Assembly (NCBI GenBank): GCA_035079385.1
Contig: JAVHKY010000013.1
Span: forward strand, 558,001 to 622,000
From: Aspidiotus rigidus
Lineage: Eukaryota > Arthropoda > Insecta > Hemiptera > Diaspididae
DNA: 64,000 nucleotides
Direction of reading: 5' to 3'
Below the pieces are notes generated by a model that was not told where the DNA came from, did not search any database, and worked only from the letters and a program-made list of their open reading frames with translations. Shown piece by piece: positions 1,075 to 59,319 of this stretch (positions are counted from its first letter, which is position 1; each line of letters begins with the position of its first letter). Made by a program: the position numbers and the translations under genes.

Positions 1075-1281
1075 ATGCCGCGCCCCGTCAAACAAGAGGG
1101 CGACGATCCAGATCCCACTCCCTATCTGTACGTTTCTTTGGAGCAGAAACGTATTGACCAGACCAAACCGTACGATGCGAAGAAGGCTTGCTGGGTACCG
1201 GATGATGCTGAGGGTTTCGTCCAAGGAGAAATACAGTCTACCAAAGGCGATTTGGTTTCCGTAAAATTGCCAGGAGGAGAT
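1075..1281 (+). CDS. Mhc: Mhc copy 1 e1, start exon
   Basis: Residues 1-69, the N-terminal SH3-like region. It opens [20 protein letters not shown], typical of insect muscle myosin, and contains the conserved SLEQKRIDQ and KKACWVPD. It ends in phase 0 at GGD before gtaatt. Same length as copy 2 e1 (207 bases). Confidence 0.93.

Positions 1282-59319: not shown

Follow-up and report, generated by a model that had tools for sequence, protein, structure and literature searches.

A 64-kb stretch of the Aspidiotus rigidus genome (the window: positions 558,001 to 622,000 of contig JAVHKY010000013.1) carries two muscle myosin heavy chain (Mhc) genes in tandem, and comparison of their exons with those of relatives suggests, with a probability that we put at about 0.65, that the locus partitioned its repertoire of alternative exons by duplication and partly complementary exon loss. 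The way in which the exons are distributed seems to follow a duplication-degeneration-complementation pattern at the level of the single exon. The two genes are:

1075..26349, plus strand: copy 1, muscle Mhc gene of 1964 aa, with 35 coding exon positions
36185..59319, plus strand: copy 2, muscle Mhc gene of 1965 aa, with 35 coding exon positions

The pair was found by open-frame self-comparison and splice-site enumeration. In the spliced models obtained by the latter, copy 1 runs from an ATG at 1075 to a stop at 26349 and copy 2 from an ATG at 36185 to a stop at 59319, the sole stop of each being the terminal one; the count of 35 exons is that of the modelled isoform of each copy. Exon positions and phases match between the copies, which have 34/34 intron positions in common. 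Both possess the motor and the coiled-coil tail of a muscle class II myosin in one full-length frame, and the best PDB chains for both are the insect muscle Mhc entries 7kog and 8u95. The initial annotation had described a tandem Mhc pair with both members intact, and the independent spliced models, with one open frame each, confirm this. The splice sites are GT-AG except for GC donors at e18a, e18b and e24 of copy 1 and at e18 of copy 2; the e24 of copy 1 (20899-20999) is thus followed by a GC donor and that of copy 2 by a GT donor. Ten ORFs chosen from the intergenic and 3' flanking DNA gave no Pfam match, and tRNA and Rfam scans of the DNA found nothing.

Both copies are old genes under strong constraint, not haplotypes. 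They are identical at 1776 of 1961 aligned residues, and the 1961 aligned codons gave a pS of 0.67, a dS of ~1.67 (near saturation) and a dN of 0.058, with a dN/dS of ~0.035. Synonymous sites this close to saturation indicate an old duplication rather than an assembly double, and outside the coding sequence an alignment was possible only at exon edges, over the alternative C-terminal exon, in the 3' UTR and between dispersed repeats. The initial annotation had named an assembly artefact as one way in which it could fail. Such an artefact, whether allelic or duplicated sequence or a copy 2 whose exons went missing through misassembly, is very unlikely indeed, to the point of being hardly tenable: we found no evidence in its favour, and against it stand the synonymous divergence, the unalignable introns, their distinct lengths, the two intact frames and the zero N in the 64-kb window. 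Gene conversion was considered as the cause of the higher protein identity of the tail and rejected, the pS of the tail (0.68) not being lower than that of the head (0.65). Exons e20-e21 (lever end and start of S2; 19339-20060 and 50469-51279) have 76% and 73% identity, below the remaining tail, and hinge exon A is likewise more diverged between the copies (62% identity). Dispersed repeats of 46-59 nt (27700-31493, 38967-39278 and 49019-49109) occur both between the genes and in introns e6-e7 and e19-e20 of copy 2, which are enlarged; they are perhaps the remains of a mobile element.

The alternative exons of the motor domain were counted with a profile scan for e2, e8, e12, e18 and the hinge, run in six frames on both strands with stops read through and compared with one Markov-shuffled control. 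As listed below, copy 1 carries 2, 2, 2 and 3 exons at e2, e8, e12 and e18, and copy 2 carries one at each:

2158..2301, plus strand: copy 1 e2a, N-terminal cluster
2376..2519, plus strand: copy 1 e2b, VKDFKK type
36665..36808, plus strand: copy 2 e2, VKDFKK type, sole variant found
5289..5392, plus strand: copy 1 e8a, ATP lip, H class
6030..6133, plus strand: copy 1 e8b, ATP lip, N class
42047..42150, plus strand: copy 2 e8, apparently Y class (IYDY...GKITIP), a class not found in copy 1; sole variant found
10287..10457, plus strand: copy 1 e12a, relay, T class
10822..10992, plus strand: copy 1 e12b, relay, Q class
43502..43672, plus strand: copy 2 e12, assigned to K class (KKEGI...LLACI), a class not found in copy 1; sole variant found
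13454..13509, plus strand: copy 1 e15a, loop 2, absent from the initial annotation
13810..13865, plus strand: copy 1 e15b, loop 2, GGRGKKGGG type
44807..44862, plus strand: copy 2 e15, GGRGKKGGA type, sole variant found
15511..15628, plus strand: copy 1 e18a, converter, YMIL class, GC donor
15886..16003, plus strand: copy 1 e18b, converter, YKIL class, GC donor
16753..16870, plus strand: copy 1 e18c, converter, YRIL class, GT donor
45950..46067, plus strand: copy 2 e18, converter, YMIL class, GC donor, sole variant found

Leaving aside two fragments of these same exons that were cut at the edges of scan segments, no other match exceeded 5.7 bits, and the shuffled control itself reached up to 6.7 bits. 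The counts of the initial annotation thus held for e2, e8, e12 and e18 in both copies, but its list for copy 1 missed a fifth motor cluster: loop 2 (e15) has two exons in copy 1 and, by a loop-2 profile, one in copy 2. The additional exon, e15a, scores 37.9 bits, is bounded by AG and GT and has the 56 nt of its partner. An all-against-all comparison of open frames revealed no further within-copy head pair; the short e15 pair was itself missed by that comparison. When the introns of copy 2 were searched with the exon profiles, neither unlisted variants of e2, e8, e12 or e18 nor relics of lost exons rose above the shuffled background. Relics are not expected, because synonymous sites are near saturation, and their absence is uninformative on the manner of loss.

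The exons of e8 (104 nt), e15 (56 nt), e18 (118 nt) and the hinge (79 nt) have lengths that are not multiples of three, so that a transcript with two variants together would lose its reading frame. According to the 2008 survey of Odronitz and Kollmar (PMC2257972), a GT donor follows a converter exon only if that exon is the 3'-most one, a rule that e18c fits. With several clusters of predicted mutually exclusive motor exons, five in all, copy 1 has the make-up of the alternatively spliced insect Mhc1; copy 2, with one exon at each of the five motor sites, does not. Counting the hinge and C-terminal choices described next, copy 1 could combine its exons in 192 ways (2x2x2x2x3 in the motor, 2 in the hinge, 2 at the C-terminus) and copy 2 in only 4.

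Copy 2 is not without alternative exons: it keeps the hinge pair and a stop-bearing C-terminal exon, and every loss found lies in the motor domain. The C-terminal exons and the possible rod starts in the following list were read directly from the sequence:

21688..21766, plus strand: copy 1 S2-hinge exon A
21918..21996, plus strand: copy 1 S2-hinge exon B
54792..54870, plus strand: copy 2 S2-hinge exon A, retained
55042..55120, plus strand: copy 2 S2-hinge exon B, retained
25925..25960, plus strand: copy 1 alternative C-terminal exon with stop
58860..58892, plus strand: copy 2 alternative C-terminal exon with stop, retained
19821..20060, plus strand: copy 1 possible myosin rod protein start, joined to e21
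51034..51279, plus strand: copy 2 possible myosin rod protein start, joined to e21
26591..26641, plus strand: copy 1 3' UTR core, 49/51 nt conserved in copy 2
59530..59580, plus strand: copy 2 3' UTR core, 49/51 nt conserved in copy 1

In both copies an in-frame ATG lies closely 5' of e21 (at 19821 and 51034). In Drosophila the myosin rod protein begins at an internal start (Kollmar and Hatje 2014, PMC3912159), which these ATGs resemble, and each copy may also make a headless rod. The identity of the 3' UTR core is kept despite near-saturated synonymous sites; slightly longer stretches around it fold somewhat better than mononucleotide shuffles (z of -2.4 and -1.9), with structures that differ between the copies. 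MEF2-like sites numbered 14 against 18.5 expected, and zero strict sites were found.

Among the 120 best matches listed for each copy, from scored candidates capped near 8000, identity was highest with isoforms of the mealybug Planococcus citri (reaching 93% for copy 1 and 91% for copy 2), both copies being 90-93% identical to P. citri muscle Mhc; after these came aphids, whitefly and other hemipterans. Ranked by bit score, both lists were headed by a fused weevil model. No named partial proteins of other scale insects occurred among the 120 best matches listed. In a coding tree of 24 sequences (22 of the 152 fetched proteins included) and 1707 constant columns, copy 1 and copy 2 were sisters (support 82), with P. 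citri next (support 100), beside the aphids. This tree favours a duplication that followed the split from P. citri, but the alternative placements were not rejected (AU 0.26 and 0.18). The branches of the two copies (0.042 and 0.069) are longer than that of P. citri (0.018).

P. citri also supplied the exon classes, which rest on 8 cluster-representative protein isoforms. These are identical in 1740 columns, corresponding to 29/35 exons, and variable only in e2, e8, e12, e15, e18 and e26, indicating that they come from one gene; no second P. citri gene was seen among the matches listed. They comprise two types of e2, three of e8, three of e12, two of e15, three of e18 and two of the hinge. Exon-class peptides and trees were drawn from 66 of the 152 fetched proteins, the isoform U chain of 8u95 included. 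In copy 1, e8a is nearest the P. citri H type and e8b the N type (28/35 each); of its relay exons, e12a has exactly the T-type sequence and e12b falls with the Q type. A read-through model of Homalodisca vitripennis (P0154) strings together eight relay-exon variants, which suggests a larger e12 cluster in this leafhopper.

The relay exon of copy 2 has the KKEGI and LLACI of the third P. citri type (K). The initial annotation had paired it with e12a, which is indeed its closest exon by raw DNA identity (149/171 nt); the third positions of same-residue codons agree at 39/52 with e12a and at 31/49 with e12b. However, trees that forced it to group with T (e12a) or Q (e12b) were rejected (AU p 0.015 and 0.006), supporting the assignment of this exon to a third relay class not found in copy 1. 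Few residues distinguish the relay classes from one another, and the K class used in this test was delimited by eye from the variants in the set of 66 proteins.

For the ATP lip the sequences are suggestive of a similar case. The e8 of copy 2, for which the initial annotation had named no match in copy 1, has the IYDY and GKITIP of the P. citri Y type, and class Y was its best placement by 7.8 to 17.2 lnL units, but the AU test was not significant (p 0.37 and 0.38 on the e8a side, 0.09 and 0.17 on the e8b side) and its identities to P. citri alone are 27, 24 and 26 of 35 with the Y, H and N types. In a census of 146 distinct e8 peptides caught by pattern, which are related and so no independent test, 53 had I or V after GK; position 10 was Y in 51 of these 53, compared with 14 of the 92 that have T after GK. 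At these two marks copy 2 carries Y and I, and the copy 1 variants carry H/T and K/T. In copy 2, e8 is separated from e9 by 95 nt and has 2027 nt on its upstream side, and in copy 1 the profile scan gave no e8 match in the 3.2 kb between e8b and e9; these spacings fit a loss of the upstream exons in copy 2 and of the 3'-most exon in copy 1. In read-through gene models, I or V follows GK in 7/16 'last' e8 peptides versus 3/25 others. A positional test of 'last' against other e8 exons, whose labels came from such models, non-insect ones included, gave -4.0 bits for copy 2, 0.0 for P. citri Y and +3.1 for Drosophila isoform K with overlapping training sets; leave-one-out scores spread from -8.1 to 16.7 for 'last' and from -7.8 to 9.8 for the others, so this test is without power.

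The remaining motor exons of copy 2 have counterparts in copy 1. As had been proposed, its e18 matches e18a of the YMIL class, to which it clearly belongs (other classes AU at most 0.004). The proposed match of its e2 to e2b is favoured by the VKDFKK type and by 6.8 lnL units, without reaching significance, and this exon is probably of the VKDF class. Overall, e2a, e15a, e18b, e18c, the H and N classes of e8 and the T and Q classes of e12 occur in copy 1 only, e8-Y and e12-K in copy 2 only, and the VKDF e2, the GGRGKK e15, the YMIL e18 and the two hinge types are shared by the copies. Each copy thus appears to keep a class that the other has lost, as expected of a pair subfunctionalized at exon level, with AU significance for e12-K, a class delimited by eye, and none for e8-Y. 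Every P. citri class seen survives at least once across the two copies.

On this evidence we propose that one intron-rich insect muscle Mhc gene with clusters of mutually exclusive exons would have been tandem-duplicated as DNA in a scale-insect lineage, and that the exon sets would then have decayed unequally and in a partly complementary manner. Copy 1 would have remained a splicing gene while losing the Y class of the ATP lip and the K class of the relay; copy 2 would have lost the motor choice at all five sites and kept the Y, K, VKDF, GGRGKK and YMIL exons; and the choices at the hinge and the C-terminus would have stayed in both. With every class seen in the P. citri gene still present in one copy or the other, neither gene would be dispensable. 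We infer this mutual dependence, together with the order of losses, the duplication at the DNA level and a narrower muscle set for copy 2, from the distribution of exons. The initial annotation had suggested that duplication partly replaced splicing; the duplication and the loss of motor alternatives in copy 2 stand, and a partition of the repertoire fits the exons better than a replacement.

The loss could instead have been one-sided, with copy 2 keeping arbitrary variants derived from copy 1's own e8a and e12a and acquiring its Y and K marks through convergence or exon conversion. The proximity of e12a to the copy 2 relay exon at the DNA level and an AU test that rejects neither e8a nor e8b kinship of the copy 2 e8 speak for this account, which we nevertheless regard as rather unlikely: kinship of the relay exon with the T class was rejected, the copy 2 e8 carries both Y-class marks, and it matches the e8 of Drosophila isoform K at 26/35 positions, compared with 21/35 for each of e8a and e8b. 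Odronitz and Kollmar (2008) prefer a different origin for the additional mosquito genes Mhc3 and Mhc4, the insertion of a partially spliced transcript, and note that the exon combination matches no Drosophila tissue set (PMC2257972). A pre-mRNA with its exclusive exons already chosen, reverse transcribed and inserted, would predict one of each motor variant together with the constitutive introns, as is seen in copy 2. For the present pair this origin is highly improbable, considering that copy 2 lies in tandem on the same strand, that the hinge pair, the C-terminal exon and the rod-protein-start region are all kept, that the 3' UTR core is conserved and an acceptor-like site lies 5' of the ATG, and that the class kept at e12, and probably at e8, is one without a counterpart in copy 1.

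The partition of the repertoire is compatible with a refinement in which copy 2 would be a flight-type myosin made mainly in winged adult males and copy 1 would serve the other muscles. Scale insects at large have wingless females and winged males. The same is reported for mealybugs, whose females are wingless and males winged (PMC7153872). The ATP lip is consistent with such a role: copy 2 exceeds both copy 1 variants in its match to isoform K, as given above, and matches the e8 of Lethocerus X1 at 28/35 positions versus 22 and 25 for the copy 1 variants. In the relay, a Lys marks exon 9a, the flight exon (PMC11944230), and the second K of KKEG, which we infer to be the site of this Lys, is present in copy 2 and not in copy 1. 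However, the copy 2 relay exon matches isoform K at 52/57 positions and the other Drosophila chain at 53/57, and the Lethocerus flight e12 is matched at 53 and 52 positions by copy 1 and at 50 by copy 2. Over e8-e18, copy 2, the one copy run, scored 1006 bits against isoform K and 966 bits against the chain of entry 5w1a, which we take to be embryonic. That entry is used in PMC11944230 to show both exon sets. The preference of 40 bits comes nearly all from the converter (BLOSUM 143 vs 67), for which e18a of copy 1 is equal (146 vs 61), both converters being flight-like to the same degree (29/39 each); nor was a second P. citri gene among the matches listed. A flight-type role for copy 2 is therefore doubtful and only a lead, and the full conjunction, in which complementary exon loss left copy 2 as a hard-wired flight-type motor gene in winged males while females are flightless, is slightly more doubtful again.

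The tandem pair is not the first insect case of its kind. In 2008, single variants were reported for every alternative exon of Aedes Mhc3 and for most of those of Culex Mhc3 and Mhc4 (PMC2257972). According to that survey, these genes have no premature stops and have kept the exon-intron structure, and Aedes Mhc3 is supported by ESTs. Copy 2 is like them in having one variant at each of five motor sites, and unlike them in its two hinge exons, its retained C-terminal choice, its tandem position and its one or two kept exons of classes without a counterpart in the sister gene. A common origin is unlikely, since our copies group with P. citri (support 100) beside the aphids, in a tree that did not include mosquito Mhc3. 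Outside the insects, tandem Mhc arrays of Lottia and Metaseiulus have lost clusters, and Mhc1 and Mhc2 of Crassostrea have kept different ones, which was explained by differential loss after duplication (PMC3912159); these are molluscs and a mite, and the passages of that paper that treat them describe whole clusters, not single variants within a cluster. Copy 1 resembles the single spliced Mhc of insects: it has the clusters reported for that of Lethocerus (1, 5, 7, 8, 10 and 11) and the alternative C-terminus. Unlike the Mhc genes of Drosophila, Lethocerus and P. citri, copy 1 is without the Y and K classes and copy 2 without a motor cluster. None of the titles listed by searches of the open-licence literature described tandem Mhc genes from a scale insect, and what seems new here is a complementarity that reaches single exons, Mhc duplicates with cluster loss being already known.

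Alternative splicing and gene duplication have long been discussed as alternative routes to isoform diversity, and at this locus both states adjoin. The tandem arrangement, the kept hinge choice and the complementary classes point to duplication as DNA followed by loss, which bears on the partially processed Mhc copies proposed in 2008. From the exon classes one can suggest which isoforms passed to which gene, and the pair would make it testable whether the fixing of one spliced combination in a gene of its own accompanies one muscle or one sex.
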